Of a stretch of 64,000 bases of DNA, positions 4,705 to 35,327 are shown piece after piece. Under the pieces are notes generated by a model, which was not told the origin of the DNA, did no database searches, and saw nothing but the letters and a program-made list of their open reading frames with translations. Origin of the DNA: an uncultured Pseudomonadales bacterium. Lineage in GTDB: Bacteria; Pseudomonadota; Gammaproteobacteria; Pseudomonadales; Pseudohongiellaceae. The stretch lies in assembly GCA_943842505.1 (NCBI GenBank), contig CALTDI010000004.1, positions 62,001 to 126,000 of the forward strand. Reading direction: 5' to 3'. Position 1 is the first letter of the stretch, and each line of letters begins with the position of its first letter. The translations under genes and the position numbers were made by a program.

Positions 4705-4807
4705 GCTCTATGTGCTCTAGCCTCAGGGTTACTCATAACCTAGCTGTGAGTAGCTTTTTTGCTATTTGCTCTGTCGTAAATTTCTGAATTACAACCCAGG
4801 ATTCCCG

Positions 4808-12348: not shown

Positions 12349-12561
12349 TCAGTACATACCTAAGATTCGTCTAGTATCCTTCGCCGACGCGGTACTACGA
12401 TCAAGTAATAGAACGGCATCGCCGGCCGCCTTAACAAGCGCTGCGTTATCTGCGGCCAGACTATCGTCCGACATAAAATAGATTATTCTCGAAACCAACA
12501 CGGCAATGTCCACCTCACTATAAATTCTGACTATTGGAAAGAGAATAAAGAATTGTTCCTA
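12349..12561 (-). pseudogene. possible gene remnant, about 70 codons, function unknown
   Basis: A minus-strand frame ending at TGA 12351-12349 reads YSEVDIAVLVSRIIYFM, then SDDSLAADNAALVKAAGDAVLLLDRS and ASAKDTRRILGMY. Its composition is protein-like and it is open right up to the duplication junction at 12561, which may have removed its start. A GTG (at VDIAV) or an ATG (at MSDDSL) could initiate a short product. No family recognised; chance cannot be excluded. Confidence 0.3.
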
Positions 12562-13441
12562 ATGATCTGGACGGCTCTGTTCGATGCGCCAGGCAAGGAG
12601 CAGATGGAAAATTCCACACTATTAGAGACTCTTATCAGCTCTCTGCCACTCGAGGCGAATGACCCCTTAATTCGACAGGTGATGGCCGAACTCGTCAGCA
12701 ACCTAAATTCACTAGAGAGACTCGGTGGAGAATTTTCCATGGAGCTGGCTCAGTACGGCCCGTTAGCCGAGCGTCAGTTATGGGAACTGGTCAGCACCGG
12801 GGCTACTGCCACTGACGACAGTCAGTCCCTTAGCACCCTAAACTTACGACTGTCACGCTACATAGGTCTTGCGCGCAGCGCAGAAGCCTTGGCGAATCTG
12901 CGCGGCCTGCTAGATGAAAGCATTGAGATCGAAGGATTCAATCTTGGTCAGAATCAACGCTGGAATATTATTCAGCGCTTCAGCGCTAGGGATTATGTTG
13001 ATGCCCGCAGCTTGCTCGCGGCTGAACGTGAACGCGACCCTTCAGATGCAGGCAGGAGAGCTGCCATTGCCGCGGAGGCTGCACTGCCCGATCTTGAAAC
13101 CAAGCGACAATGGGCAGACCGCATCCTCGATACCGAGAACCCTCTGCCACTGTCCAATCTTCGGGCAGCGATGGGGTCGCTATTTCCCACCGGGCAAGAG
13201 GAATTGCAATTAAGCCTACTCCCGCAACTGACAGAGAATCTGGGCTGACCTTGCCGCAAACCGCGACAACTATTTTCAGCAGAGCTATGGCCGCGATTTA
13301 TTCTCCGGCATATGCAGCGAACAGGGCCTGCAGATTCTATCCAATGCAATTAGCGACCCAGATGCTATCGGCGCCACACTCTATCGATTCATGAGTGAGA
13401 ACCAACAGAGCGCCGCCGATTGCATAGCCGCCAGAAACTAG
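12562..13441 (+). pseudogene. truncated and frameshifted copy of the M1 aminopeptidase C-terminal region
   Basis: Near-identical to 6608-7486. It lacks the whole catalytic domain, so GAMEN and HEXXH are absent. One extra G near 13243 (CTGGGCTGACC against CTGGCTGACC) shifts the frame to an early TGA at 13248; the original reading resumes in another frame to the TAG at 13441. A TTG at 12553 could start a short product, but no function is expected. Confidence 0.9.
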
Positions 13442-15054: not shown

Positions 15055-15082
15055 AAGCCGCTTGTTGTAAAACAAGCGGCTT
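15055..15082. terminator. bidirectional terminator hairpin after VCBS gene
   Basis: AAGCCGCTTGTT-GTAA-AACAAGCGGCTT is a perfect 12-bp stem with a 4-base loop, preceded by a run of A (T on the minus strand). It would end the VCBS transcript and the convergent small gene whose tail lies just beyond. Confidence 0.88.
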
Positions 15083-15457: not shown

Positions 15458-16942
15458 TTACCCTCGGGGGAAATTACTCAGCCAGGCTTCAGTGGCAATA
15501 GTGATGCTATTTACCAGCAGGCCAGGAAAGAAACCCAGGATTAGGGCGAATAGACAACAGGGTAGAAGGATCAGCATTTCATCTACTTTTAAATCCGCAT
15601 AGGGCTGTTTCGGGGGATTGATTGTTTCTCCCCAAAACGTTTTTCTAGCATGGGTAAGCAGGTAGGCCGCGCTGATTATAATGGTTGTCAGCGCAATCAA
15701 GCCGAAGCTTACATGGAGTTTAAAAACCCCCAGAATTAGTAAGAGTTCTGCTGCAAAACCACTAGTCCCGGGAAGACCGATACTGGCCAGTGCCAGAAAA
15801 AAGAACAGGGATGTAAAGCGCGGCATAGTGCTGGCAAGATTGCCCAGGGAAATCAATTCAGTGGTACCGGTACGCTGTTGAATAAATCCGCTCATCAGCA
15901 TCAAGCCACTGGCGATCATGGTGAAATTCAATAACTGGAATACTGCGCCCTGAATGCCCTGGTTATTCAGGGAAGCAACGCCCATCACCACTAATCCAAC
16001 ATGACTTATGCTGGCATAGGCGAGCATGCGGCGCAGGTTGGTCTGATGTAAAGCAATGAATGCGGCATACAGTAAGGTCAAGGCGCCACAGATGCCCAGA
16101 AGCCAGGCGTAATTAACAGCGGCTTCCGGTGCCAGAGGTAAGGCAAAACGTAATAATCCGTAGACGCCCAATTTCAATCCCACCAGCAAGGCGGTTAACT
16201 GTGCGGGGGATTCCATGGCGATTGTCGGTAACCAGGTGTGGAATGGAAACAGCGGCGCTTTGGCAGCAAAACCGAGCACCAGCAAGCCGAAAAGTAGGGG
16301 TTGCAGGTGACTGGCGACGGGAGACGCCAATAATTGTGGCAGGCTGAAAGTTAAAACCTGGCTTGTCGGATCACTAACGTTGAGTGCCAGTAAAATGAAG
16401 GCAAACAATAAAGGAATGCCACCAAACATCATGTACATGGTGTACTTCATTGCGGCTCTGCGTCGCTCAGGACCGATTCCCCACAGGCTAACCAGAAAAT
16501 AAATGGGTGGCAGGGTAAGCTCCCAGAACAGGAAAAACAACATGGTGTCCAGGGCCATGAAGATACCCATGGTAACGGCAAGTAATACCAGCATCATGGC
16601 AAAGTAAAAGCCATGTAGTCTGTCCACACTATGCCAGGACGCTACTATGGCAATTGTTGCCAGCACGGCCGTTGCCGGCAGAAATAATACAGAAATACCG
16701 TCTATCCCGAGCAGATACTGAATATTCAGGCCGGGAATCCACATAGCCTGTTCCATGAACTGGAATTCACCGCCGCGGAGATGATCAAAAGAAACATACA
16801 CTATTAGCGCCAGAGCAGTTTCGACTATTGCCGTGATCACAGCGATCAGGCGCGCAGTACTGACCGCAGGGAAACACAGGGTCAGGATGGCGCCGGCAAG
16901 GGGTAAAAAAACCAACGCACTTAACCAGGGAAACATTGTCAT
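15458..16942 (-). CDS. NuoM-like proton-translocating subunit (dab operon, fifth gene), 494 aa
   Basis: A membrane protein of about 14 helices in the Proton_antipo_M family (complex I NuoM/NuoL and Mrp relatives). Key channel residues are present: Glu in FFLFWELTLPPIYFLVS (TM5), Lys in AAKAPLFPFHTWLP (TM7) and Lys in LVGLKLGVYGLLRF (TM8). Its start overlaps the previous stop by one base (TAATG at 16942), indicating tight translational coupling. No complex I hydrophilic subunits are nearby. In this context it probably forms part of a membrane module that drives DabA with the ion gradient. It is more NuoM-like than the DabB at 18397. Confidence 0.9.
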   Translation of the reverse strand: MTMFPWLSALVFLPLAGAILTLCFPAVSTARLIAVITAIVETALALIVYVSFDHLRGGEFQFMEQAMWIPGLNIQYLLGIDGISVLFLPATAVLATIAIVASWHSVDRLHGFYFAMMLVLLAVTMGIFMALDTMLFFLFWELTLPPIYFLVSLWGIGPERRRAAMKYTMYMMFGGIPLLFAFILLALNVSDPTSQVLTFSLPQLLASPVASHLQPLLFGLLVLGFAAKAPLFPFHTWLPTIAMESPAQLTALLVGLKLGVYGLLRFALPLAPEAAVNYAWLLGICGALTLLYAAFIALHQTNLRRMLAYASISHVGLVVMGVASLNNQGIQGAVFQLLNFTMIASGLMLMSGFIQQRTGTTELISLGNLASTMPRFTSLFFFLALASIGLPGTSGFAAELLLILGVFKLHVSFGLIALTTIIISAAYLLTHARKTFWGETINPPKQPYADLKVDEMLILLPCCLFALILGFFPGLLVNSITIATEAWLSNFPRG

Positions 16943-18375
16943 TACAGTGCCCTCTCCAGCCAGGCCGCAAGTGGGTATATACCGGAAATTATTAACATCA
17001 GACCCAATATAACGCAGATCAGTAATTCGCCAGGTTGATGTTGTGTTGCTTTCTTGCCAGTGATGGAAACAGGACGCCTGGAGTCAGCGATAAAAATTTG
17101 TTGAAAGGCACGAAGCAGAAAGGCTGCTGCCAGTACATTACCAATAAGAATAACAATTGCGGTTTGCCAGCCGCTATTTTCAATAACCCCTTCCAGTAAG
17201 ATATGCGCAGCGTTATACCCTGGTGTTCCTGGCATGGCCATGGTGCTCAGGGCCGCAAGCAGAAATAACAGTGCTGCCGCCGTTTTCTTTTCAAATAAAT
17301 TCCCCAGGCGTGGGATGAAGGCAGTGCCACTTGCACGGTGGATGAAGGCGCTGCTGAGAATCAACCCGGTGGAAGCAATACCGAAAGCAATGCTAAGCAG
17401 AATACTCCCCTCCAGGCTATGTGCATTACCGGTAAACAAACCGATTACCAGCATGCCATTATGGCTGATTATTGCGAAAGCCAGCAGGCGGTTGATATTG
17501 ATTTGCATGAGTGCAAGCAAGGCGCCATAAAATATACAGAACAGGGCAATGGTAGTAATTAATCCTGTCCAGTGCTCTTCTCCAGCCGGCAGCAGCGGTG
17601 TAGCAAAACGGTATAGTCCGTAAATCCCGATTTTTACGCCAGCGATAAAGCAAAATACCGGAATGGTTTTGTTACTGTTTACCAATTCAGGAAGCCAGCC
17701 ATGAAAGGGAAATATCGGCAATCTTACTGATAAGCCAAAAAATAAAAGAATAAAACAGACGGTGGCTGTTTCAAGATTAGCAGTGGTACTCAGATATTGA
17801 TGGTCAAGTACTGCGCTGGACTCCCCGGTACTGCCCAGGACGATGATCAACATGGCTGCCAGTATCATGCCCAGCATTAAGGCCCAATAGCGAGTAATGA
17901 CAGATGGCAATTGTGGTTTGTTGCCCATGATTGCTCCTGACATCATCCGTATGGGAATGAGCTCAAGAAGCAGGAAGCACCAGAACTGCAAAAGATTTAA
18001 CGCGGTAAGTGCTCCAATTAGGATTGCCTGATAAAGCAAAATAGCGGCAAAAATAGAGCCCTTATTGTCCTCTATAGCATAGCGAGCATAGAGCAGAATA
18101 ATTGGCCCCAGTGTGCTTGTTAACAGCAGAAAGATCATGCTGACGCCGTCCAGCCCGGCATGCCACGCGATATTTCCGCTGCCAAGGGATTCTTCCAGAT
18201 GAATGCCAGAGGGCTCCGTATTGACAACAAGCAGGCTATAAAGACTCATTCCGAGAACCGCAATGCAGGCAGTCATGGCCATTGCAAATTCAGATCGGGC
18301 GCTACGTTGAACTGCAATGGCAGTGAACACCAGAATCAGGATGGTTAAGGAAATTATTGGGAAGGATGTGAGCAT
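16942..18375 (-). CDS. NuoN/NuoM-like proton-translocating subunit (dab operon, fourth gene), 477 aa
   Basis: Multi-helix Proton_antipo_M protein. The TM5 Glu survives (CFLLLELIPIRMM), but the TM7 lysine of the canonical (V/A)KxPxFPxHxWLP motif is Arg here (LSVRLPIFPFHGWLPE). The following helix keeps Lys (AGVKIGIYGLYRF). The Lys-to-Arg change at a proton-path residue suggests altered coupling or a mainly structural role. It lies 21 bases after DabB and overlaps the next gene by one base. With its neighbours it gives this operon four antiporter-like subunits, more than the usual single DabB. Confidence 0.85.
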   Translation of the reverse strand: MLTSFPIISLTILILVFTAIAVQRSARSEFAMAMTACIAVLGMSLYSLLVVNTEPSGIHLEESLGSGNIAWHAGLDGVSMIFLLLTSTLGPIILLYARYAIEDNKGSIFAAILLYQAILIGALTALNLLQFWCFLLLELIPIRMMSGAIMGNKPQLPSVITRYWALMLGMILAAMLIIVLGSTGESSAVLDHQYLSTTANLETATVCFILLFFGLSVRLPIFPFHGWLPELVNSNKTIPVFCFIAGVKIGIYGLYRFATPLLPAGEEHWTGLITTIALFCIFYGALLALMQININRLLAFAIISHNGMLVIGLFTGNAHSLEGSILLSIAFGIASTGLILSSAFIHRASGTAFIPRLGNLFEKKTAAALLFLLAALSTMAMPGTPGYNAAHILLEGVIENSGWQTAIVILIGNVLAAAFLLRAFQQIFIADSRRPVSITGKKATQHQPGELLICVILGLMLIISGIYPLAAWLERAL

Positions 18376-18396
18376 CAGGCTAATAAAGTCTCCGGC

Positions 18397-19959
18397 TTAC
18401 AGGGCAAACAACAATACGATGACAATAAACATAATCAGGTAACGTGTACGCAGCAGTAATTGTTCAATACTAATTGCAACAAAACCCATGCGGCGACCTG
18501 CTGAAGGTAACTTCTGTTCTATGCCTTGCAGTACAAAGTGATGTTCAAACCAACCACTACAAGCAGCTACCCACGCAGTCAGATGCCCGGCAAGACCGCT
18601 ACCACTGGAAAAATTATTTTCATCGGTATCAAGTCTGGCGCCAATTAATTGTTCTTCTCGCTGTGCCAGTCTGGCTCCAGAAAGGACGGCCGCCTTAGGC
18701 AGACCAATTAGCGGGTCAACGAAATTGTCATCAAGTTTGGCAAGATCACAGGACAGCTGACGACAAGGTTTGCTGATAAGCTGATGGCTGATTTCTTCCA
18801 GCCAGAAGTTATGCAGAGATGCCAAAGACAGCCAGCGCAACAGCGGATGTTTCAAGGTAACGGGAATAACCGGGTTGCCATGGACGTTATGCAGGATGGA
18901 AGGGGCCGTCAGATATAGATAGCAACGAACTATTGCATGAGCACAAAGATGAATGAAAGCCAGTTGCCACAGGCCTAACCCACATTCAACAAACATCAGA
19001 CCGAGTTGTCCTGCTGTGGAAAAGCCCAGTGAACTTTTAATATCTACCTGGGTTTGTACGCTAAGCAGACTGTATGCAAAGGTTAACAGACCAACAGCTA
19101 TAAGCAGCAAAGACATGGCAGGCGAATGGTCAAAAACCGGTGACAGCAATATAAGAAGAAACACGCCGGAGTGCACCATGACGGCACCATAAAAAACAGC
19201 ACTTGAAGGGGTAGGGCCTTCCATGGAGCGGTTCAGCCACCAGGTGAAAGGAAATTGCACAGATTTAACCATGGCAGCCATGGCAAAACTGAAGGCTATC
19301 AGGTTGACCTGAGTTGCGCTGAGCGTACCAATCTGATTATTAATTTCCGGCCATTCCAGCGTGTTAAGCCAGGTATGACACAAAATAGCGGCAAGAATGA
19401 AAAATGCATCACCGATTCGATTAACAATGAAAACCATGTAGGCGTTTTTTGAAGCATTCTCACGATGCCAGGCAAAGGCAATTAACAGGAATGAACTGAC
19501 CCCAGCTAACTCCCAGCCAATAAATGTCATGATCACATTCCCGGAAAGCAGGATCATATACATGGCAAATACAAACAGGCTCAATAGCATGAAAAAGCGG
19601 TGAAAACCTTTTTCACTATGCAGGTAATTTCTGGAAAAACGAAAGATGACGATAAACAGCAGAGAAAACAGGCAGCTGAGAATCAGCCCTGGACCTGCAG
19701 TTTGAAAGCTCAATGACACTATAAAAGTCCCGCTATTGAGCCAGGTCCCTACAGTGTAGCTCCCGGTCAATGCATTGTTGTTGTCTAGCCATAGCAAGCT
19801 AAAACATAGCGCAGTGCTGATGTAGACAGACCAACAGGCAATGCGTGAGGTCAGTGCTTCTGATTGGCTGCTATCCAGAAAACGGCTGAATTGACCCAGA
19901 CCTATTGCTACTGTGGCCAGCAAAGGCACTAAGGGTATGATAGAGACGAGGAAATCCAT
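18397..19959 (-). CDS. dabB: DabB: NuoL-like membrane subunit of the DAB inorganic-carbon pump, 520 aa
   Basis: DabB is the cation-translocating membrane partner of DabA in energy-coupled CO2 or bicarbonate uptake. The NuoL-type core is seen in FIGWELAGVSSFLLIAFAW (TM5 Glu), the following RENASKNAYMVFIVNRIGDAFF, MVKSVQFPFTWWLNRSMEGP (TM7 Lys) and TPSSAVFYGAVMVHSGVFLL. The MEGPTPSSA signature is characteristic of NuoL/DabB. A cytoplasmic C-terminal extension precedes a final anchoring helix (YLIMFIVIVLLFAL). Its start lies 4 bases after the dabA stop, the classical dabA-dabB adjacency in reversed gene order. Confidence 0.92.
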   Translation of the reverse strand: MDFLVSIIPLVPLLATVAIGLGQFSRFLDSSQSEALTSRIACWSVYISTALCFSLLWLDNNNALTGSYTVGTWLNSGTFIVSLSFQTAGPGLILSCLFSLLFIVIFRFSRNYLHSEKGFHRFFMLLSLFVFAMYMILLSGNVIMTFIGWELAGVSSFLLIAFAWHRENASKNAYMVFIVNRIGDAFFILAAILCHTWLNTLEWPEINNQIGTLSATQVNLIAFSFAMAAMVKSVQFPFTWWLNRSMEGPTPSSAVFYGAVMVHSGVFLLILLSPVFDHSPAMSLLLIAVGLLTFAYSLLSVQTQVDIKSSLGFSTAGQLGLMFVECGLGLWQLAFIHLCAHAIVRCYLYLTAPSILHNVHGNPVIPVTLKHPLLRWLSLASLHNFWLEEISHQLISKPCRQLSCDLAKLDDNFVDPLIGLPKAAVLSGARLAQREEQLIGARLDTDENNFSSGSGLAGHLTAWVAACSGWFEHHFVLQGIEQKLPSAGRRMGFVAISIEQLLLRTRYLIMFIVIVLLFAL

Positions 19960-19963
19960 GTTA

Positions 19964-22900
19964 CTACGCTCCCTCAGGCTGCGTGATCAGGATTGGCGAA
20001 ATAGGATCATGTATCCCTTTATAGCAGTCGGTAGATTTCGCGCATTCCGGTAAAGGCAAATCGTCTTCCTGCCACAGAACAAAGCCCTGGTCAGGTTCGA
20101 ACATATGGATTGCATCACTGTCCGGGTCCTTGGTCGCCAGTAATAACCAGCCGCCACCAACAAGTTCCTGTAATGCCGGTTGGTCGCCATAAATACGCTC
20201 CAGCACAGTGGTTTTGTGTTCCACCACAACCAGCAAGCGCATGGGTTCATGAATTTCAATCATCTGTTCAGGTAACCCGGTTCTCAGGTCGCTGCCAGTG
20301 CCTTCCAGAACGCCGAACAGACCGGCAACATTATGAGGAATCTTGGTGCCACAGCCGAACTTGTTATTGTCAATGGTGGAAAAATAATATTCCAGATTGA
20401 TCCCGGCACCTACTGGGCCGGCAGTAAGCAAAATATTTTCCAGGATATTGCCTTCCGGATCCTGGGTTGGATCGTAAGAAATAAGGAATGAACGCCGGTC
20501 GAGAAATAAGCCCTGGGAAATATTGCGACGGCCAATGATGGCAGAGGCATTAGTAGCATGACCATATTCTGGTCGAACCTGGCTCAGGTCTCTGGCACGC
20601 AGAATAACGTGTTGGAATGCCTTTGCTGGTGTTGCCGGGTCGTTGGCGGAAGAAAAGCGTCGGCAGCGTTCATGAGCTGAATATGCCTGTGCCTGTTCAA
20701 TATTTTCACTGAAGGCCTGGAAATTATCATGCAGGTCTGCAGGGATCAGGTCCGTGTCATACCAGATGATGGAATCATTACAGGTGTCATGCTGCATGCC
20801 AAGAAACCAGCAGTCATTCGGAATGTGAATGCCACCAGCAGCAAGAATGGTTCTGACTTCTGCCCGGTTTGCCATTCCGGCATAAGCCCTGGCATTGGGG
20901 CCGCCCTGACGTCCACCGCAAGCGCCACAGTCATGGGCAGCTTCATGAGGATTATTCTGGCTGGTAGAACCATGGCCTGAGAATGCGACGAGGGGAGCAA
21001 AATTAGCCGTCAGGCCCAAAGTTCGCAACAGGGCACCAACCTTGTCTGCCTGTTCCTGATCAGTAAAACCAAGTCGTGGATTTTCTGTGCTGGCTTCAGT
21101 ATCCGGAGAATCTGTAGTGATGGTTAGTTCTGTGGTAACAGGTGTCACTATATAACGCCTGACACTGTCGACAATGCCTTTATATTGCGCTGGAAACAGG
21201 CTGTGCATGAGTTGTCCGACAAGTGAAAAAGGCGCAAGCAGAAAGGTGCCAAACCAGTTATATAACGGGTTCAGACGAAAGCTCTGGTGCAACTTGTAAG
21301 TGAAACTTTTGAGAAAGACCGCGCCCTTACGATGGGATTTCAGCAACTGGTCTTGTGCAGCCCTGGCTTTTTCATCCACCCGGTGAGCGGGTGTGACGAC
21401 AATAGGACATAACGATGTTAAATGGGTGTCGTCAAGACCTTTGAATTTCATAGGTATGCCAAAAAAGCCTGCGGCACCAAGTGTTTCTATGCGTGGATTG
21501 AGCTCTTCCAGATGACGTCTGAAACTTTCTTCCCGTTCATCCATACACATCACAATCTGGGCTTGGGGTCGGTTGTCTCTTTTTACCCAGATTCCACGGC
21601 GGTAATTCCCTGCAATGCCCTTGAACAGATCATTGCGGTAATGAATTTCATAGGCAAGCAACCAGACCCTGTTTCGGATTTCAGAACTGAATTCATCGAG
21701 GGTCTGTAACATGGCTGTCAGTACTTCCTTGTCCAATAGTGGAAGGGCATTTTTACCCAGGCCAAGGTGCTGACACAGACGAAAAAGTTTCCAGCCTTGA
21801 TCGTGAGCACAGCAGACGGTCTCACCGCTATGGTATTGCTGCCAGGAGTGAAGACTGCTTGCCAATTCCAGCCAATGTGATTCTTCAGCATTTTGTTGCT
21901 GGTTCAATTTGTCTGTTTGCTGGCTCAGGGTTTCAGGCATGTTTCCGCGCTGCCAGGCAGAGCGCACCCAGCATTCCAGAGAATGCCTTGTCAGGTAGTG
22001 AGAGAGTGCAGAATAATTACCATCGCATTGCCAGAGCTGTCTGCATAGCTGATCCAGATAAAGTTTGTCGAGTGTGAGCCTGATCGCCAGCCAGTCAGAC
22101 AAGTGAGGTTGCATGGCATTCAGACAATGATAGTCAGGATTTTGTTGTCGCCAGTTGATTAATCCAGTCCATCCAGGCATTTCAAGGCATAAACGCTGCA
22201 AGTAGCCGGCCCATTTTGCTTGTGGCAACTGCAGCTTTTCGAGTTGTTGAATGATTGTGTATTCCGCCGAATCCGGCAACTGCGCAATGATGTCTTGCCA
22301 GGCAATAGCCTCAAGAGCCAGACCGCAGTCCTGGTGAAGACTGCCGCGCCAGGCCTGATAAAGGCTGTGATAGTGATTATCACCGGCATGCCAGGGCGCT
22401 GTTCCTTCATCAAGCATGCTTGCTGACAGGCGCATCATGACTGGAAACACAGAGTTTCTGATGTCCTGACCAGAAAGTGAAAACACAAGGCCTCCCAGAC
22501 TCAGGGAGTTGCCCACTTCTGCAAGTAAGTTACTGGTGTCGGAATTGGCAATATCAGTTATTGTTTGCGAGTCTGTCAGCGGCAATGGTGAAAGTGAATC
22601 CGGATCCTCGTCAAGCCTTGCAATCGCCAGCGTGGACTGAATATGCTGCCATAATGCCGGTAAGGTAGTGCGGGCATTTTCATTGCCTTCACTTAATCTG
22701 GCTTTGGCATCGGCAGGGATGTCAGTCTGCCATTCAGTCAGGGCTTTTTCCCGAGTGAGTTGCCAGCGCAATTGAGCTGTCGAGATTGCGCAGACAGGCG
22801 CACGCAAGGCAGCGAGATAAATATCGCTATTTCCAATCTTCATTTCCGATTTATCAGAACTGAGCAGTACCTCGCCAGGCCGCAATGATGCATTACTGTC

Positions 22901-23167
22901 GATTGCCTGGTTTAAATCCTTTTCTGAAATTCGCCCCTTGTCGAAGCATTCACGAAACCGGGTTTCTGTCATATATCCCCGGGTTCCAGTCAATTTTTCG
23001 TAATCTTCCAGAGCCTGGCTAAAGGGTAGGTGCTGGAAACCATGGATGGTGTTGTGATGAATAAAATCCAGGATCGGTCCTTGCCCCGGCAGGATATGAT
23101 TAAGATGATCAATAGCCTGACGTACTGTTTCCAGACGGGAGTTTTTTGTGGAATCAGTGTTTGACAT
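19964..23167 (-). CDS. dabA: DabA: DUF2309 zinc subunit of the DAB inorganic-carbon pump, 1067 aa
   Basis: DabA is a cytoplasmic, peripheral-membrane protein with a beta-carbonic-anhydrase-like zinc site; with DabB it is thought to hydrate CO2 vectorially, driven by the ion gradient. The site is intact: Cys541 and Asp543 in IVMCMDEREESFRRH, His732 in AFSGHGSTSQNNP and Cys747 in AHDCGACGGRQGG. The His-to-Cys spacing of 15 equals that of the characterised Halothiobacillus protein (H524/C539). The conserved N-terminal HHNTIHGFQHLPF motif is at 37-49. It is somewhat longer than many homologs because of glutamine-rich helical inserts (about 400-450). It starts 9 bases after the preceding NuoM-like gene. 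Confidence 0.95.
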   Translation of the reverse strand: MSNTDSTKNSRLETVRQAIDHLNHILPGQGPILDFIHHNTIHGFQHLPFSQALEDYEKLTGTRGYMTETRFRECFDKGRISEKDLNQAIDSNASLRPGEVLLSSDKSEMKIGNSDIYLAALRAPVCAISTAQLRWQLTREKALTEWQTDIPADAKARLSEGNENARTTLPALWQHIQSTLAIARLDEDPDSLSPLPLTDSQTITDIANSDTSNLLAEVGNSLSLGGLVFSLSGQDIRNSVFPVMMRLSASMLDEGTAPWHAGDNHYHSLYQAWRGSLHQDCGLALEAIAWQDIIAQLPDSAEYTIIQQLEKLQLPQAKWAGYLQRLCLEMPGWTGLINWRQQNPDYHCLNAMQPHLSDWLAIRLTLDKLYLDQLCRQLWQCDGNYSALSHYLTRHSLECWVRSAWQRGNMPETLSQQTDKLNQQQNAEESHWLELASSLHSWQQYHSGETVCCAHDQGWKLFRLCQHLGLGKNALPLLDKEVLTAMLQTLDEFSSEIRNRVWLLAYEIHYRNDLFKGIAGNYRRGIWVKRDNRPQAQIVMCMDEREESFRRHLEELNPRIETLGAAGFFGIPMKFKGLDDTHLTSLCPIVVTPAHRVDEKARAAQDQLLKSHRKGAVFLKSFTYKLHQSFRLNPLYNWFGTFLLAPFSLVGQLMHSLFPAQYKGIVDSVRRYIVTPVTTELTITTDSPDTEASTENPRLGFTDQEQADKVGALLRTLGLTANFAPLVAFSGHGSTSQNNPHEAAHDCGACGGRQGGPNARAYAGMANRAEVRTILAAGGIHIPNDCWFLGMQHDTCNDSIIWYDTDLIPADLHDNFQAFSENIEQAQAYSAHERCRRFSSANDPATPAKAFQHVILRARDLSQVRPEYGHATNASAIIGRRNISQGLFLDRRSFLISYDPTQDPEGNILENILLTAGPVGAGINLEYYFSTIDNNKFGCGTKIPHNVAGLFGVLEGTGSDLRTGLPEQMIEIHEPMRLLVVVEHKTTVLERIYGDQPALQELVGGGWLLLATKDPDSDAIHMFEPDQGFVLWQEDDLPLPECAKSTDCYKGIHDPISPILITQPEGA

Positions 23168-23176
23168 AGCGTTTTC

Positions 23177-24640
23177 TCAGAATACTCCGGCAAAAGACTG
23201 GTCTATGTGCGTGATTGCGCTGGCTGATAAATGAATAAGCGGCGCAGGCGTGATACCGAGTGCGACAATGAGTAGCACCAGAATCCCGGCTGCCAACATT
23301 TCCGACAGCTTTAAGTCCTCGATCTGTTTCATGTCACTTTTAACTGGACCGGTAAACAGCATGGCAATGGTGCGCAAAGCATAAGAGGCTGTAATGAGGA
23401 TGCTGATACTGAAGAAAACCATCAGCCAATTCCACTGTTGAAAACCGCCAATTATAGTGTGCAGTTCAGCGATGAAACCCACCGTGCCCGGTAATCCCAT
23501 TGCCGCCAACAAACTCAAAGTCATGAACAGGGTAAAGCGGGGCATCACCTGGACCAGAGAGCTGTAATGCTTGATATCACGGGTATGAGTACGCTCATAG
23601 AGCAGTCCTACGAGGAGAAACAGGGCGCCGGCAATAAGTCCGTGGGCAGTCATCTGAACCACGGCGCCGGTAAATCCATTTTCATTCAGGGCGGCGATGC
23701 CCAGTAATACAATACCCATATGGCTTACTGACGCGTATGCAATCATGGCTTTCAAATCGGTCTGACGCCATGCCAGCAAGGCTCCATAGATCATCCCAAT
23801 AAGTGCTAATGTCAACAGCAAAGGCTGGATGAATACTGCAGCTTCGGGCAGTGTAGCAATGATCCTGATTAGTCCATAAGCTCCCATTTTCAGCAGGATT
23901 CCTGAAAGCAGGATGCTGACGGGACTGGGGGCTTCCACATGGGCGAGGGGAAGCCAGCCATGCAATGGGAATATCGGCATTTTGACACCAAGGCCCAGTA
24001 GAAATCCGGCAAGGATCCAAAGCTGCTGGCGTACGGGAATGTCTTCACTGGAAATTCGCATGCTAGCCATTAGCGTATTACTGTCGGCTGGAATAAATTG
24101 CTCAATGGCAAAAATGCTGAGAAGCATGAAAATCGAACCACCCATCGTGTAGAGGACGAAATTCAGACTGGCCGCATGACGCCTTTGTCCCCCCCAGCGA
24201 TCAATCAGAAAATAAAGAGGCACCAGGGTTACTTCCCAGAAAATGAAAAACAGGCTCCATTGCTGAGCTAGAAAAACTCCCAACATGCCAAATTCCAATA
24301 TTAAGACACTGATATGGTAAGACTTGATGCCATGGGTGATTGAGCCAGATGCCAGAAGTGCCACCAGAGTCAGCAGGGAGGCGAGTACCACCATAGGTAA
24401 GGAAATGCCGTCTATGCCCAGTGTGTAAGCAGTTCCGAGGAAGAGAAAGTCTGTTTCAAGCAATTGTGGCGCGGCATTGCTGGCATCAAATCGTGCAATC
24501 AACAAGCATGAAAGCAACAATGTTGCAGCAGAAACCAGGAGGGCTATCGTACGGATAGCTCTGGTGTTTCCGGGTTGTATGAAAGCCAGAATGATGACTC
24601 CAAGAACAGGAGCCCATAATAGCTGACTGATAATTCCCAT
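23177..24640 (-). CDS. NuoM-like proton-translocating subunit (dab operon, first gene), 487 aa
   Basis: Complex I NuoM-type fold with TM5 Glu in FFIFWEVTLVPLYFLIDRWG, TM7 Lys in GLGVKMPIFPLHGWLPLAH and TM8 Lys in GILLKMGAYGLIRI. The HVEAPSPVSILLSG stretch is diagnostic of NuoM rather than NuoL. It is the promoter-proximal gene of the dab operon. Upstream, a perfect palindrome (24713-24731) sits about 73 bases before the start codon. No nuoA-K neighbours exist, so it is not from a complex I operon. Its role is inferred: an additional ion-conducting module of the DAB complex, or part of a separate antiporter co-regulated with it. Confidence 0.9.
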   Translation of the reverse strand: MGIISQLLWAPVLGVIILAFIQPGNTRAIRTIALLVSAATLLLSCLLIARFDASNAAPQLLETDFLFLGTAYTLGIDGISLPMVVLASLLTLVALLASGSITHGIKSYHISVLILEFGMLGVFLAQQWSLFFIFWEVTLVPLYFLIDRWGGQRRHAASLNFVLYTMGGSIFMLLSIFAIEQFIPADSNTLMASMRISSEDIPVRQQLWILAGFLLGLGVKMPIFPLHGWLPLAHVEAPSPVSILLSGILLKMGAYGLIRIIATLPEAAVFIQPLLLTLALIGMIYGALLAWRQTDLKAMIAYASVSHMGIVLLGIAALNENGFTGAVVQMTAHGLIAGALFLLVGLLYERTHTRDIKHYSSLVQVMPRFTLFMTLSLLAAMGLPGTVGFIAELHTIIGGFQQWNWLMVFFSISILITASYALRTIAMLFTGPVKSDMKQIEDLKLSEMLAAGILVLLIVALGITPAPLIHLSASAITHIDQSFAGVF

Positions 24641-24966: not shown

Positions 24967-25016
24967 TTTAATAAACGAAGTTGCAATGTCTTGAGATACA
25001 AGACTCACTAGGAGAA

Positions 25017-25775
25017 ATGAAAAAATCGCTGATCACCACTTTCAAAAGGCCACTGGCATTGACAGCACTTACCATGGCAGTAGCTACTGTTTCGGCTCCT
25101 TCCTATGCTGAACTGTCAGGTAACGTAAGTGTAACTAACAACTATATATGGCGTGGTCTGACTCAGAGCATCAATGAGTCTGCTGTACAAGGTGGCCTTG
25201 ATTACGCGAGCGAGTCTGGATTTTACGCAGGTACCTGGGTTTCTAATGTAGCTTATGATTCAGATGATGCTTATTCTTGTGAGCATGACATGTATTTTGG
25301 CTTTGCAGACGAAACAGAAGGCTTCAGTTACGATGTTGGCTATCTGTATTATAACTATGACTCTAATGTTGGTTATGACTTTGGTGAAGTTTATGGTTCA
25401 GTTGGTTTAGGTAATCTTGGCCTTACTCTTTATCTTCTGACTAATGCAGAGCCAGATGAAGGCCTTGGTGAAGATTTTGGTTTTGCTGAAGCGTCTTATT
25501 TCTCCGTTGATTATGCTATCCCCCTCTCAAGTGGTGCGAAAGTGGGCTTGCATGCAGGAGACTTCGCTTACTCATTTAATGGTGTGACTGAAGATTACTT
25601 CGATGACAACATCAGCATTGCTAAAGATGGATTCTCAGCGATGATTTCCATGACTGATCTGGATTCGGATGGTGACGGTGATGGTGATGGTTTTGAAGAT
25701 TAAGCAAATATGCCTGCTCGTGATAATGGCGAAGTTAAATTCGTTGTTTATTACGGTGTAGACTTCGAGTTGTAA
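25017..25775 (+). CDS. TorF-family putative outer-membrane porin, interrupted by an in-frame TAA near the C-terminus
   Basis: Start ATG 25017 with AGGAGA upstream. The signal peptide ends SAPSYA (about residue 33). The mature part is a small beta-barrel of alternating strands starting ELSGNVSVTNNYIWRGLTQS, the hallmark of the Gcw_chp/TorF (TIGR02001) family. The frame reaches TAA at 25701-25703 right after an acidic run DSDGDGDGDGFED, giving 228 residues. Beyond it the same frame continues ANMPARDNGEVKFVVYYGVDFEL to TAA at 25773-25775, which looks like the native last strand. The gene is thus broken by a nonsense codon, read through, or mis-sequenced. Placed with dab and bicarbonate transporter genes, it probably lets inorganic carbon into the periplasm. 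Confidence 0.8.
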
Positions 25776-26099: not shown

Positions 26100-26123
26100 A
26101 GCCCGGCTTGGGGTAGCCGGGCT
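26100..26123 (-). terminator. Rho-independent terminator of the sulP-carbonic anhydrase operon
   Basis: AGCCCGGCT-TGGGGT-AGCCGGGCT is a perfect 9-bp stem. On the minus strand it is followed by a T-rich run (TTTTTTATTT), placing it about 35 bases beyond the SulP stop codon. Confidence 0.88.
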
Positions 26124-26159: not shown

Positions 26160-27821
26160 TTAGGTAGCAGGTTGCAGGTCAAGCCCTTTAATATCGCCAC
26201 TAAGATCTTCCAATGCCGCTTCAAGTGCTTCTTCCCGCGTTGCATAGTGATTGCTGGGGTCAATATGCTTGTCTGCTTCCAGCACGCTGAGTGTTGACTC
26301 TACAGATTCATTCATTCCACAAGGGTAGACTTTGCGCTTGGTTTTCGCCGCATTACTGGCAACAGTTTCAATGGCCAGTGCTGCGGAAACATCGAGAAAA
26401 GGCACGCGGGAGAAGTCGAGAATGATTGCCAGGGCCCCACCTTCAAGTTGTGAGCGGGCATGGTGACCAAGGTCAGCTGCTGCGCCAAAACTCATAGGGC
26501 CGCTGAAATCAAAAATATTGATCTTATCACCGAGCAAATCAATTATTTCTTTTTCACGTGTTGTGGCATTGTGACGAATCAGGTGAGTTTGACGCAGTCT
26601 TTCCATTTGATCATGAGCAACCTGTTTAACGAAGGCAATTGAGGCCAGAACTACGCCTACAGCCACCGCAGTAATCAGGTCGACAAAGATTGTCAGGCCG
26701 ACAACAATTAGCATCAATGCCAGGTCCCAACGCGGACCACGATGTGCATTTTTGATGTAATTCCAATCAATAATGTCCAAGCCTACCTTGATCAGGATGC
26801 CTGCCAGTACAGCATTGGGAATGAAACTGGCATAAGCACCAAGGCCCAGTGCGACGCCGAGTAAAAGAAGCGCATGAATCATCCCGGAAATTCTTGTGCG
26901 TCCACCTGTACGAATATTGACCACGGTACGCATAGTGGCACCAGCTCCGGGTGCACCACCAAACAGACCGGCAATGGTATTACCAATACCCTGACCAATC
27001 AGTTCTTTATTTGAGTCATGTCTGGTGCCCGTCATATTATCTGCAACAAGTGATGTCAGCAGGCTGTCAATGGACCCAAGCAGCGCCAGAACAAATGCAG
27101 CTTCAGCGATGATAAGAAATGAAATGGCTGAGAATTCTGGCAAGTGTATTTGCGGCAAGCCGGAAGGAATATCTCCGAGGATTGGCGCGCCACCGATAAA
27201 AAGGCTGAGGATAGTGCCAATGATAAGTGCAGCCAGTGGCCCCGGCACAAATTTGGCTAACTTGGAAGGCCACTTAAAGGCTATGCCAAGCGTTAGTATA
27301 CCAATAAACAAGGCAACAAAATTGATATCCAGGATTGCTGTTGGCGTGTAAAACAGCGCATCGACAGTGCCTGCAGGTGCGCTGTGTCCCAGCATCGGAC
27401 TAATTTGAAGGATTATGATGATGCCGCCAATACCACTCATGAAGCCGCTGATAACAGGGTAAGGGACCAGGCGAATGTATTCGCCCAATTTAAATAAACC
27501 CAAAGCAACCTGAAAAAGTCCCGCCATCATAATAGCTGTAAAGATAAGACCGGTATTTCCCATGAGGTCTGGATGCGAGGCAATACTGGCAGCAAGCCCT
27601 GCACAGACTACTGTCATGGGCCCGGTTGGACCTGAAATCTGTGGTTCTGTGCCGCCAAAAAGAGCCGCAAAGAAGCCGACAAAAATGGCGCCATAAAGAC
27701 CTGCAATAGGGCCAAGGCCGGATGCCACACCCATGGCCAGAGCAAGGGGCAAGGCAACTACGCCAGCTGTCAGGCCGCCATATATATCGCCGCGTAAATG
27801 TGATGTATCCAGTTTGATCAT
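26160..27821 (-). CDS. SulP-family (BicA-like) anion transporter with STAS domain, probable bicarbonate uptake, 553 aa
   Basis: Membrane core opens with GDIYGGLTAGVVALPLALAMG and SGPTGPMTVV, the SulP signatures, and has about 12-14 helices to residue ~400. A C-terminal STAS domain (about 430-540, with IIDLLGDKINIFDFSGPMSFG and IILDFSRVPFLDVSAALAIE) follows. SulP proteins carry sulfate, bicarbonate or other anions. The gene begins 22 bases after a beta-carbonic anhydrase and sits beside a DAB operon, which argues for bicarbonate (often with Na+), as in BicA. AAGGAGA ribosome site 8 bases before the ATG. Confidence 0.9.
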   Translation of the reverse strand: MIKLDTSHLRGDIYGGLTAGVVALPLALAMGVASGLGPIAGLYGAIFVGFFAALFGGTEPQISGPTGPMTVVCAGLAASIASHPDLMGNTGLIFTAIMMAGLFQVALGLFKLGEYIRLVPYPVISGFMSGIGGIIIILQISPMLGHSAPAGTVDALFYTPTAILDINFVALFIGILTLGIAFKWPSKLAKFVPGPLAALIIGTILSLFIGGAPILGDIPSGLPQIHLPEFSAISFLIIAEAAFVLALLGSIDSLLTSLVADNMTGTRHDSNKELIGQGIGNTIAGLFGGAPGAGATMRTVVNIRTGGRTRISGMIHALLLLGVALGLGAYASFIPNAVLAGILIKVGLDIIDWNYIKNAHRGPRWDLALMLIVVGLTIFVDLITAVAVGVVLASIAFVKQVAHDQMERLRQTHLIRHNATTREKEIIDLLGDKINIFDFSGPMSFGAAADLGHHARSQLEGGALAIILDFSRVPFLDVSAALAIETVASNAAKTKRKVYPCGMNESVESTLSVLEADKHIDPSNHYATREEALEAALEDLSGDIKGLDLQPAT

Positions 27822-27842: not shown

Positions 27843-28517
27843 TTAAAAACGTCGATCAACTTTGGTTTCTTTCCACTCAGTGGTGTGCAAGTGCGCGTAA
27901 CGGTCCTGCACAGAAACAAACGTGCCCTTTTCAGAGTCAAAACAGGTGACTTCACCTGAGCCTATATTATAGATCCAGCCATGCAGTTCCAAGTTTTCCT
28001 TTGCCATGCTGGTTGCAACACTAGGATGAGTTTCAAGATGCCTTAATTGTAACAGCACATTTTCCTTGGTCATTTCATGCAGGTGTTCATCGACGGAGAG
28101 TTCATCGTGTCTTGCAGAAACTCTGGCAAGTGCGGCCGCACTATGTGACAGCCAGTTATGTACATGGGGTAAGGACTTGGCAATATCAGGCTGCATGGCC
28201 CCTTTCATAGCACCGCAATCAGTATGTCCACAAACAATAATATATTGAACACCCAGAACGGAGACTGCAAATTCAATGGATGCAGTTACCCCGCCGGTTG
28301 CCAGCGAATGTGGTGGGACGATATTGCCAACATTGCGATGAATAAAAAGATCGCCGGGATCTGTTTCTGTTATCAGGCTGGGGTCAACCCGTGAATCACA
28401 GCAGGTGAGGAACATCACTTCGGGATCCTGTTGATTGGCAAGTTCCTGAAAAAACTCCCTGTTGTTGGGAAATGTGCTTTTCTGAAATTCAGAGATTCCT
28501 TTAATCAATTTTTTCAT
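27843..28517 (-). CDS. beta-class carbonic anhydrase, 224 aa
   Basis: Interconverts CO2 and bicarbonate in the cytoplasm using zinc. All catalytic residues are seen: Cys39, Asp41 and Arg43 in FLTCCDSRVDP, and His98 and Cys101 in VCGHTDCGAMKGAM. The IHRNVGNIVPPH motif matches the family. It is first in a two-gene operon with the SulP transporter, a common pairing in which the enzyme works on the transported bicarbonate. A free cytoplasmic anhydrase would dissipate a bicarbonate pool in a carboxysome-based cell. Its presence, with no carboxysome genes here, fits supply of bicarbonate to general carboxylases instead. Confidence 0.95.
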   Translation of the reverse strand: MKKLIKGISEFQKSTFPNNREFFQELANQQDPEVMFLTCCDSRVDPSLITETDPGDLFIHRNVGNIVPPHSLATGGVTASIEFAVSVLGVQYIIVCGHTDCGAMKGAMQPDIAKSLPHVHNWLSHSAAALARVSARHDELSVDEHLHEMTKENVLLQLRHLETHPSVATSMAKENLELHGWIYNIGSGEVTCFDSEKGTFVSVQDRYAHLHTTEWKETKVDRRF

Positions 28518-28658: not shown

Positions 28659-28680
28659 ATAAATTTTGCCCAGATTTGCT

Positions 28681-29622
28681 ATGAAAGACCTGAATATTTC
28701 CCTGAAACAACTGCGTTACTATCTTGTTGCTTCGAAGCATGAAAGTCTGCGCCAGGCTGCTCGTGAACTTAAAATTAGTCAGCCTTCTCTGAGTGCTCAA
28801 TTACAAAAATTGGAGCAAGCTTTGGGAATAGAGCTATTCGAGCGAAGCAGGGGAGGAGTCAGGCTCACTCCTCTCGGGCGCGACCTGCTGAAACAGGCAC
28901 AACAAGCAGTGAATGCTGCACAGGTAATTATAGATGCTGCAAATTTCGCCACCAAGGGACCTTCCGGGACATTCAGGCTTGGCGCCAGTCCTACATTAGG
29001 CCCCTATGCCTTGCCGTGGATATTACCGGAAGTTCACAAGAAATATGGAGGTGTAAAGTTTTTTGTCAGAGAGGAAGTGCCGGACGCGCTGGCCGAAGGA
29101 CTCTACAACGGTCGTTATGATCTTATTTTGACGACTCTGCCATTAAAGGAAGAGGGTATCACTGTTATACCTTTGTTTAGGGAGCCTTTATATCTGGTAA
29201 TGAATCGCCAGCATCCTCTTGCCCATAATAAATCCATAAGAGCTGCTCAACTAGCTGGATTGGAAATACTGACCTTGGAAGAACATCACCTGCTGTTCAG
29301 ACAGGTAGAGGATCTTTGTAAACAGTTTAAAGCTGAAATTCTGCGTGATTATGAAGGCACCAGTCTCGACTCCATTCGGCAGATGGTTTATATGGAAATG
29401 GGGGTCGCTTTCTTGCCGGCACTTTATATCCGCTCCGAGATTCTCGACAGGGATGAATTGAGTGTTGTCAGTATTACAGGTGAGTCAATCGATCGAGTGC
29501 ATGCACTGGTATGGCGAGATACCTCACCGCAGCGAAGTTTCTATCGGGAGCTTGCCAAATTTTTCCAGGGAGAATTTGAGAAACAATTCAGCAAGGATGT
29601 GGTCATGCTTACCAATGTGTAA
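28681..29622 (+). CDS. LysR-family regulator, OxyR-like, probable island activator, 313 aa
   Basis: N-terminal winged HTH (LKQLRYYLVASKHESLRQAARELKISQPSLSAQLQKLE) followed by a periplasmic-binding-type effector domain. The effector domain resembles OxyR (FRLGASPTLGPYALPWILPEVH and LFREPLYLVMNRQHPLA). The peroxide-sensing cysteine segment HCLRDQ of OxyR reads HLLFRQ here, so the first redox Cys is Leu while a Cys near the second position (EDLC) remains; disulfide peroxide sensing is unlikely. Divergent from the carbonic anhydrase operon, with the operator candidate shared with dab upstream. It probably responds to a carbon-status metabolite. ATG 28681 is preferred over a TTG at 28666. Confidence 0.88.
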   Translation: MKDLNISLKQLRYYLVASKHESLRQAARELKISQPSLSAQLQKLEQALGIELFERSRGGVRLTPLGRDLLKQAQQAVNAAQVIIDAANFATKGPSGTFRLGASPTLGPYALPWILPEVHKKYGGVKFFVREEVPDALAEGLYNGRYDLILTTLPLKEEGITVIPLFREPLYLVMNRQHPLAHNKSIRAAQLAGLEILTLEEHHLLFRQVEDLCKQFKAEILRDYEGTSLDSIRQMVYMEMGVAFLPALYIRSEILDRDELSVVSITGESIDRVHALVWRDTSPQRSFYRELAKFFQGEFEKQFSKDVVMLTNV

Positions 29623-33879: not shown

Positions 33880-35304
33880 TTATCTTACGACCAATTTCCT
33901 AATCCAACCATCGCCTTTAGTCAGTAGATAGAGCTCACCTGCCGCATCGGTACCAAGCCTCAAATCTGCCCGCTTGCCGCCGCCGTAGGTGTTTGCAAAT
34001 CCCGTCGCCTCAGCCATGTTTACCTCATTCCCATCCATGACAATACGCAGTTCCTGTATAGAAGCCGGTTTTCCTGCCTCAAGCCCGTCACTTTCGGCGT
34101 GGAACACGCGGCCCGATACCATGTCGGTAAACACGACTCTGCCGACTAGCGCTGGAATTCCTGTACCGCGATAGACATAGACACTGCTAACCGCATTGCC
34201 TTCGTCGTGATCAAATTGGAGAACAGGATAAGTGAATTCCTGACTATCATTTGGCTTAGGGTACACCGGATTCGGTCTGACATTACCGATCCCAAAAGCC
34301 GAAGCAAACATACCCTCGCGTAAACGCCAACCATAGTTAGCGCCGGGGACGCCTATATTTATTTCCTCGATCTGATTCTGCCCGATATCGGCGATGTACA
34401 TAGTGCCATCGCTGTCGAACGAAAAATGCTGGGGATGTCGCAGGCCATAGGCCCATATCTCCGGCGCTGCCCCCACTTCGCCAACGAAGGGATTGTCCTC
34501 GGGTATTCCATAGCTTGAAGGGTACTCAGAATTCAGGGGGTCGATTCTAATGATGGATGACATTGGCGAGTCGAGAGACTGCCCGTTCTCATTAGGATCA
34601 TTCGCCCCACCTCCATCTCCCAGGCTGGCAAATAGCAAACCATAGTCTGAATCGGCATTCGTAGCGGCATAATTAAATGCCAAGGTACCAATGTTATGAT
34701 TTTGTGCGAACTGTCCTATGCGAAATATTTCTCTCGATGTACCGGAGAAGACATTAGCGCTCGCATCCGTCGCCGTCCACTCACGAATCACACTCTCATG
34801 GTTCTCGGAATTGTCATCCAGATAATTGGCAAGCCCGCTTTGTGAACTCGTACTGAAAGCTGTGTAGAACTTGCCGTAGCCCGGCCTGCCAACTTGTCCG
34901 AACTGAGGGTGGAACGCAAAACCCGCTAGTCCGGTTTCGTTGGGGTACATGGAGTCATCGAAGCCTACTTCGCCGCCTCGAATATCCAGAAACGCATCGA
35001 GGGTGTTCGCCTGCTCATCATAGATATACAACACGCCGCGCAGCTCATTGATCACAAGGCGTCCGGAGTTATCCGGAATTGGCTGCATATACTGCAGGCG
35101 AGCATAGGCATTGTTAGTGAGAGGGACATCATTTGAGTCCAGGGTCTGCGGTAGCCGCAGAAATTCCTGGGCGATAACACTGATCTCGCCCTTCTCAATC
35201 TTCGCAGGAATAGGATCGACCAAAGCTTCGGGTAAAGCCTCGGCGGCGAACGAGCCAGCCATCGCACTCATACAGGCAAAACTAAAACCGACTTCCAACT
35301 TCAT
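33880..35304 (-). CDS. PQQ-type sugar dehydrogenase (glucose/sorbosone dehydrogenase family), exported, about 474 aa
   Basis: After a signal peptide (MKLEVGFSFACMSAMAGSFA) comes a six-bladed propeller with the GSDH pattern: LVINELRGVLYIYD, GLAGFAFHPQFG, HNIGTLAFN, LLFASLGDGGGANDPNENGQ, EIWAYGLRHPQHFSFD, and MYIADIGQNQIEEIN. These correspond to the catalytic His, the Ca/PQQ-binding Arg-His and Asp sites of soluble glucose dehydrogenase relatives. The GTG at 35331 overlaps the stop of the preceding PQQ dehydrogenase, showing translational coupling; ATG 35304 gives a better signal peptide. Confidence 0.88.
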   Translation of the reverse strand: MKLEVGFSFACMSAMAGSFAAEALPEALVDPIPAKIEKGEISVIAQEFLRLPQTLDSNDVPLTNNAYARLQYMQPIPDNSGRLVINELRGVLYIYDEQANTLDAFLDIRGGEVGFDDSMYPNETGLAGFAFHPQFGQVGRPGYGKFYTAFSTSSQSGLANYLDDNSENHESVIREWTATDASANVFSGTSREIFRIGQFAQNHNIGTLAFNYAATNADSDYGLLFASLGDGGGANDPNENGQSLDSPMSSIIRIDPLNSEYPSSYGIPEDNPFVGEVGAAPEIWAYGLRHPQHFSFDSDGTMYIADIGQNQIEEINIGVPGANYGWRLREGMFASAFGIGNVRPNPVYPKPNDSQEFTYPVLQFDHDEGNAVSSVYVYRGTGIPALVGRVVFTDMVSGRVFHAESDGLEAGKPASIQELRIVMDGNEVNMAEATGFANTYGGGKRADLRLGTDAAGELYLLTKGDGWIRKLVVR

Positions 35305-35327
35305 GGCTCGATTACCCTCGTATATGC

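Follow-up and report, generated by a model that had tools for sequence, protein, structure and literature searches.

A conserved five-gene DabA operon with three NuoM-like subunits in Pseudomonadota

The DAB2 system of Halothiobacillus neapolitanus (DabA2-DabB2, PDB 9rd0) consists of two subunits only. The operon described here encodes DabA and DabB together with three additional NuoM-like membrane proteins, which raises the question of whether these belong with DabA and, if so, what they might do. It lies in a window of 64,000 nucleotides (the whole stretch of DNA analysed; contig CALTDI010000004.1, positions 62,001 to 126,000) from an uncultured bacterium of the Pseudomonadales. Its genes, which we call M1, dabA, dabB, M2 and M3 in order of transcription, are listed in Table 1; they are separated by 9, 4 and 21 bases, followed by a 1-base overlap between M2 and M3.

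The five-gene set and its association with DabA

DabA matches Pfam PF10070 with 792.8 bits, and the other four proteins all match Proton_antipo_M (PF00361, cut-off 21.5 bits), M1 with 237.1, DabB with 137.6, M2 with 120.0 and M3 with 204.6 bits. A PF10070 protein adjoining a NuoL-like PF00361 protein is the pairing found in DAB/DAC systems. The NuoM model TIGR01972 (cut-off 263.8 bits) recognises M1 (474 bits) and M3 (455 bits), and gives M2 217.8 bits, below the cut-off; the best NCBIfam match of DabB, also below cut-offs, is to the N-terminal part of NuoL. On the 294-position PF00361 model, M1, M2 and M3 match as far as 293 or 294 and DabB only as far as 227. M1-M3 also match Mrp-type subunit models, less strongly than NuoM, and in a small tree of 61 rows they group with NuoM, not with NuoN or MrpD. 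In the same tree, M1, M2, M3, the DabBs of five-gene operons and the DabBs of two-gene operons form one clade each (ultrafast bootstrap 100). Support is high for a sister relation of M2 and M3 (99/97) and lower for the grouping of the two kinds of DabB (92/84).

No complex I peripheral-arm or MrpB/C/E/F/G family was found among the 29 open reading frames (ORFs) of the window scanned against Pfam, and neither NuoH/J/K nor peripheral-arm subunits occur in the five-gene operon, whose neighbours belong to other families. A stray Nuo or Mrp operon is ruled out, as such subunits were found neither in the operon nor among the scanned ORFs. The genome has three other PF00361 genes, taken as NuoL, NuoM and NuoN, which lie together on its contig C22. 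A preliminary description of the locus had listed five close-set leftward genes, four of them with PF00361, a DabA zinc site (C541/D543/H732/C747) intact in all its residues, and neither hydrophilic complex I subunits nor MrpE/F/G; all of this is borne out.

The occurrence of the set was analysed in a sample of 398 Pseudomonadota genomes, 69 of which contain PF10070. We fetched 71 stretches, comprising the hits of 67 of these 69 genomes (the window's own and one below the cut-off were excluded) and one more from the window's genus, and labelled their ORFs by phmmer against the window proteins. All five genes are present in 30 stretches and the DabB-DabA pair only in 31. The remaining 10, assigned partly by inspection, comprise two operons that contig ends split into four halves (L078/L092 and L079/L091), one further operon cut in this way (L044), a locus with DabA, DabB and a diverged companion (L074), two loci with DabA alone (L049, L082), a fused DabB-DabA (L105) and a DabA joined to Mrp-type genes (L080). 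A second, named set was made of the best 80 of 572 confirmed relatives and is biased to close relatives. Here five separate ORFs are found in 54 of the 80 loci, 18 are cut by contig ends (by our own criterion) and 8 are of other kinds, including L176, which is complete with DabB and M2 fused. The sources of this set include Methylobacter, Methylomonas, Nitrosomonas, Nitrosospira, Nitrosovibrio, Nitrotoga, Competibacter and Thiothrix. Because the same five genes recur, a chance origin of the arrangement is excluded, and the set is confirmed as a conserved family in Pseudomonadota, found in methanotrophs, ammonia oxidisers, Nitrotoga, Competibacter and Thiothrix. The arrangement is real and widespread, and NuoM beside dabA-dabB had been reported in 2017 (PMC5700660).

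Within the window's own order, PF10070 matches occur in 50 of 390 genomes. A DabA match of about 3 kb is confined to the window's genome, with two genomes reaching 2.6-2.7 kb; this suggests that the operon may have been gained horizontally.

Association of the extra subunits with DabA was followed using M2 alone, since M1 and M3 profiles would also match NuoM. The M2 profile was built from 17 sequences and used with a threshold of 400 bits, set at the score gap after viewing the list. M2-class matches of at least 400 bits occur in 36 of the 398 sampled genomes, including the window's, and the next match scores 327 bits. All 36 also have a long DabA; the only genome with a long DabA and no M2, G353, carries a three-gene system (described below). 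M2 without dabA, which would have spoken against the proposed tie between the extra subunits and dabA, was looked for in the 398 genomes and not seen. Eight of the named loci with incomplete dabA regions were followed up by whole-genome searches, which found M2 in all eight genomes (526-621 bits), outside the dabA locus in six (L138, L143, L172, L177, L180, L189) and in or adjoining it in two (L184, L192). In two sampled genomes, G194 and G198, an operon M1-M3-DabB-M2 lies on a different contig from dabA, with M1 cut by the contig end in G198. In all eight cases in which M2 is absent from the dabA locus (six named, two sampled), it is therefore found elsewhere in the genome. By comparison, the three-gene genomes G488 and G673 contain no M2-class match (best 220 and 223 bits), and in the 31 two-gene stretches the profiles of M1, M2, M3 and the diverged companions match no ORF other than DabB at E 1e-3.

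Natural fusions point in the same direction. M1 and DabA form a single ORF in one genome (L180, Candidatus Competibacter phosphatis), and DabB and M2 form one in six genomes (L176, L184 (which is also G777), G775, G776, G778 and G780), with the DabB part interrupted by a frame change in G776. The DabB-M2 fusions may represent few events, since their sources are mostly recorded as Competibacteraceae or Contendobacter. Two further long ORFs that include DabB (L048, L110) were rejected as fusions, being overlaps with DabA in another frame. Because fusions join M1 to DabA and DabB to M2, they suggest that M1 lies near DabA and M2 next to DabB. The co-occurrence of M2 even away from the dabA locus, the fusions and the single clades together support the view that the extra subunits belong with DabA.

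Residue and helix patterns in DabA, DabB and M1-M3

Residue counts were made after removing sequences at least 85% identical, except that the set of 112 long DabA sequences includes redundant ones. Residues are compared with DAB2 using numbering verified against chains 9rd0_A and 9rd0_B. Helix names (TM5, TM7, TM12 and so on, for transmembrane helices) follow complex I.

The zinc ligands of DAB2, C351/H524/C539, and its D353/R355 pair are all matched in the window DabA on alignment to 9rd0_A. The corresponding residues C541, D543, R545, H732 and C747, in which R545 is additional to those first described, are identical in 112/112 long DabA. The finger residue is different: Glu444 of DAB2, a change of which abolished activity, aligns with Phe642 of the window DabA. 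Glu is present in 19 of the 20 short DabA aligned (out of 27 available), while the commonest residues in the 112 long DabA are Asp (40), Ala (16), Asn (15) and Leu (15). An early impression from 22 rows that long DabA always loses the finger acid was overturned by these Asp residues.

DabB differs consistently between the two kinds of operon. The window DabB carries E150, Y257, H263 and R345, the first, second and fourth of which correspond to Ile151, His260 and Lys347 in DAB2. Position 150 (the TM5 Glu) is Glu in 79/79 five-gene DabBs and in 0/31 two-gene DabBs; position 257 is Tyr in 79/79 and His in 31/31; position 263 is His in 78/79 and Asn in 31/31; and position 345 is Arg in 79/79 and Lys in 31/31. 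In DAB2, alanine at His260 or Lys347 impairs activity. The protein also appears to be truncated. Taken sequence by sequence, residues 358-500 show no hydropathy peak in any of the 79 five-gene DabBs, whereas all 31 two-gene DabBs have two to four peaks past the same column. Five-gene DabB therefore seems to lack helices TM11-15, the part of DAB2 that makes up its periplasmic half-channel together with the DabA finger; only a single predicted helix, at the C-terminus, follows TM10. Residues 377-422 of DabB can possibly be aligned with residues 572-617 of 6hum_F, at 9.2 bits, which is not significant alone.

The three-gene systems, found in G488 (the window's genus), G673 (the window's family) and G353, comprise DabA (955-995 amino acids (aa)), a DabB that is shorter again (434-457 aa) and one strongly diverged antiporter-like companion (369-433 aa). 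Two of these companions are recognised by Pfam, which misses that of L196; all three score positively against the M3 profile (64, 26 and 21 bits). A shortened DabB thus has a companion in all three of these cases, as it has in the complete five-gene operons.

M1 and M3 retain canonical residues throughout: E136, K220, H227, K251, H307, H333 and E392 in 68/68 non-redundant M1, and E141, K228, H235, K257, H314 and E399 in 65/65 non-redundant M3. At position 340, where M1 has a His (H333), M3 has Phe in 64 sequences (F340 in the window) and Met in one. M2 is different: the TM7 Lys is replaced by Arg (R218 in the window) and the TM12 Glu is absent (A390 in the window), both in 57/57. It is not simply dead, an idea ruled out by the retention of H391 in 57/57 and of an acid at position 395 (E 52, D 5; E395 in the window).

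The suggestion of a larger multi-channel DAB complex, or of a DAB pump joined to a second ion-motive module, is partly supported. The extra subunits go with DabA, but they are not equal, M2 lacking the TM7 Lys and TM12 Glu. DabB itself is shortened and altered, and for this reason the proton path seems to be redistributed and not simply multiplied.

A possible proton route and alternatives

From the observed gene content, conservation, co-occurrence, fusions and residue and hydropathy patterns, we infer how a five-gene DAB might physically assemble, and the route, direction and stoichiometry of its protons. By a narrow balance, we favour the reading that the five proteins form one membrane complex, a multi-subunit, H+-driven DAB in which DabB would link DabA to M1-M3. 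DabA would hydrate CO2 to bicarbonate on the cytoplasmic side, as indicated by its intact zinc site and by DAB2. DabB, shortened after TM10, would act as a docking subunit joining DabA to a row of M1, M2 and M3. Inward proton flow through M1 and M3 would power the hydration, with lateral coupling via the TM5-Glu/TM7-Lys ion-pair residues retained by DabB, and M2 would be a non-canonical spacer or modified channel beside DabB. The driving force would be the proton-motive force (PMF), and not electron transfer as in cyanobacterial NDH-1MS. Two or more H+ would then be used per bicarbonate, allowing steeper accumulation.

Entry of protons via M1 and M3, driving DabA through DabB, is proposed because the pattern resembles that in NDH-1MS: DabB keeps the interface Glu and Lys, its channel is lost or changed, and it adjoins M subunits with full sets of proton residues. 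The more specific proposal, drawn by analogy, is of a redox-free counterpart of NDH-1MS, with DabA powered by M1 and M3, and perhaps a rewired M2, and with the DabB channel dismantled. This we put forward tentatively, at somewhat less than an even chance.

Several observations weigh against the favoured reading. Some members of the family may still use the proton path of DabA and DabB, since 40 of the 112 long DabA have Asp at the finger position. Operons with M1-M3 are not the only ones to show the TM5 Glu and the Tyr and Arg changes: three-gene DabBs bear the same Glu, Tyr, His and Arg, and so does a 626-aa DabB in L159, which keeps the later helices and for which no companion gene of its own is seen. 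This rules out the idea that the TM5 Glu is kept only where M1-M3 exist, and these residues appear to mark a DabB lineage, not strictly the presence of M1-M3. M2, with His391 and a nearby acid, may still conduct. Finally, across 59 loci the five proteins have correlated pairwise distances (0.85-0.94), as linked inheritance alone, without contact, could produce.

One alternative is that DabA and DabB are the whole CO2 pump, and M1-M3 a separate but co-expressed antiporter, for example of Na+/H+ or K+/H+ type, which handles the hydration proton or pH. The matches of M1-M3 to Mrp-type models, weaker than to NuoM, and the location of dabA apart from M1-M3-DabB-M2 in two genomes fit this explanation. 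In those two genomes, however, DabB stays with the M genes, while fusion joins M2 to DabB in six genomes and M1 to DabA in one; DabB shows no helices, by hydropathy, for a periplasmic half-channel of its own; and the operon contains none of the small Mrp subunits. We consider a separate antiporter unlikely.

It is about equally unlikely that the complex is real but its extra subunits serve in structure or assembly, protons still taking the DAB2 route through DabB and the finger of DabA. The loss of canonical residues from M2, and Asp at the finger position in 40/112 long DabA, are compatible with such a role, but the canonical Glu and Lys kept in all M1 and M3 would be unexpected in scaffolds, and DabB, from which the later helices are missing, carries Tyr and Arg at the two sites where alanine impairs DAB2.

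The same complex might instead be driven by Na+. A sodium gradient has been put forward as the driving force of MpsAB; DAB2, by contrast, needed no sodium. No evidence of a sodium site was found in the five-gene set. Its residues follow the complex I pattern, which does not discriminate between the two ions; we regard a sodium-driven complex as unlikely, to much the same degree. CO2 hydration yields little energy. This, and the description of DAB2 as PMF-driven CO2 hydration, make it very improbable that the complex runs in reverse, exporting ions powered by an exergonic DabA reaction, as proposed in 2017 before DABs were characterised (PMC5700660).

On the more specific reading, as a redox-free counterpart of NDH-1MS, the operon would give methanotrophs and nitrifiers a CO2 pump that uses several protons, a machine run by ion flow with lateral coupling of the complex I type and no electron transfer. 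Such coupling is a debated point for complex I. If the favoured reading of a proton-driven five-subunit complex is right, the DAB variants would provide a natural experiment on the lateral coupling of antiporter-like subunits, with the same DabA catalyst found with one full membrane subunit (DAB2), with a short DabB and one companion, and with a short DabB and three; both the coupling ratio and the lateral coupling would become testable without electron transfer. Surveys based on PF10070 only would lump this CO2-supply machine of methane- and ammonia-oxidising bacteria with DAB2.

Genomic setting and comparison with known systems

Table 1. Coordinates of the operon, its neighbours in the window, and the three-gene loci
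Feature	Coordinates	Strand	Basis or remark
M1, NuoM-like antiporter subunit, 487 aa, first gene of operon	23177..24640	-	ORF call, Pfam, NCBIfam
DabA, long form, 1067 aa, beta-carbonic-anhydrase-like	19964..23167	-	Pfam, residue alignment
DabB, shortened NuoL-like subunit, 520 aa	18397..19959	-	Pfam, residues, hydropathy
M2, divergent NuoM-like subunit, 477 aa	16942..18375	-	Pfam, NCBIfam, residues
M3, NuoM-like subunit, 494 aa	15458..16942	-	Pfam, NCBIfam, residues
Terminator-like hairpin with T run, downstream of M3	15055..15082	-	Consensus match only
Terminator-like hairpin after SulP gene	26100..26123	-	Consensus match only
SulP transporter, BicA-like, neighbour	26160..27821	-	Best NCBIfam BicA, 532 bits, below cut-off of 880
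Beta-carbonic anhydrase (Pro_CA), neighbour	27843..28517	-	Pfam
LysR-type regulator, divergent from carbonic anhydrase-SulP pair	28666..29622	+	Pfam
Three-gene DAB locus L196	5329-12345		DabA, very short DabB, diverged antiporter-like protein
Three-gene DAB locus L197	5263-12129		DabA, very short DabB, diverged antiporter-like protein
Three-gene DAB locus L074	110-5719		DabA, very short DabB, diverged antiporter-like protein

The neighbours of the operon are shown in Table 1. The SulP gene probably has its own transcript, separate from that of the five-gene operon. Separate transcripts are suggested by the terminator-like hairpins after SulP and M3, which are consensus matches of a kind not enriched in the region (12 found against 15.7 expected in shuffles). 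The genome is 94% complete and gave no match to PF00016, the large chain of RuBisCO, so that tying the operon to Calvin-cycle autotrophy is not supported for this organism. With genes for a BicA-like SulP, a carbonic anhydrase and a LysR regulator next to the operon and no such match, carbon supply to carboxylations outside the Calvin cycle is likely.

Elsewhere in the window, a Gcw_chp family protein is encoded on the + strand between the DAB operon and SulP (24981-25703), opposite to both. A stand-alone ERAP1_C-like ORF (12553-13248, +) is possibly a remnant of an M1 peptidase gene like that at 4766-7486, and adjoining GSDH and PQQ dehydrogenase genes (33880-37478, -) overlap by 4 bases.

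Three loci in other genomes show further arrangements. In a Methylococcaceae metagenome-assembled genome (MAG), L159 (2196-19256) contains a complete five-gene operon followed by carbonic anhydrase and SulP; immediately upstream of this operon lies a separate pair of DabA (867 aa) and DabB (626 aa). In G013, of the window's genus, L080 (9187-18581) has a frame-broken short-type DabA joined to an Mrp-type operon (MnhE, MbhD/E-like, MnhB, MrpD-like, NuoL-like and NuoM-like), with a broken SulP upstream; the frame breaks may be assembly errors or decay. In a Thiothrix MAG (L188, 7439-20900), two DabA-DabB pairs stand in one gene row, preceded by M1 and followed by M2; a DUF559 gene separates the first DabA from DabB.

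A gene neighbourhood resembling that of the window was described in 2017 as COGNAT clade C (PMC5700660), with dabA (ybcC) upstream of a nuoL homologue, often with NuoM (COG1008) and SulP (COG0659); the window set matches it in these respects. The same paper suggested that more membrane subunits mean more ions. Both NuoM and SulP beside dabA-dabB and the idea relating subunit and ion number are therefore already in print, and the five-gene anatomy adds detail: the available portion of the clade C account is without three distinct M subunits, their obligate co-occurrence, the residue losses, the M fusions and the shortened DabB. A literature search recognised this anatomy in no paper, which does not establish its absence from print.

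The window set shares with DAB2 a PF10070 DabA, the same zinc site and a NuoL-like DabB. DabB2, however, has 15 helices, with Ile151, His260 and Lys347, and works with Glu444 of DabA, whereas in the window DabB is shortened and has Glu, Tyr and Arg at these positions, and DabA has Phe642. The three-subunit DAC DAB1 (DabA1, DabB1) is similar in adding a membrane protein to DabA-DabB, but that protein is a small hypothetical transmembrane protein, unlike M1-M3. M1-M3 resemble NuoM of complex I; the peripheral-arm, NuoH/J/K and MrpB/C/E/F/G genes of complex I and Mrp systems have no counterpart in the operon. A further parallel is cyanobacterial NDH-1MS (CupA-NdhF3-NdhD3; PMC6981117), in which a CO2-hydrating subunit sits on a NuoL-like subunit beside NuoM-like proton channels. 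The NuoL-like subunit of NDH-1MS keeps the interface ion pairs and has an altered lateral proton channel, in likeness to the window DabB; CupA does not share the carbonic anhydrase fold, and electron transfer drives NDH-1MS, whereas the window operon encodes a beta-carbonic-anhydrase-like DabA and no redox subunits.

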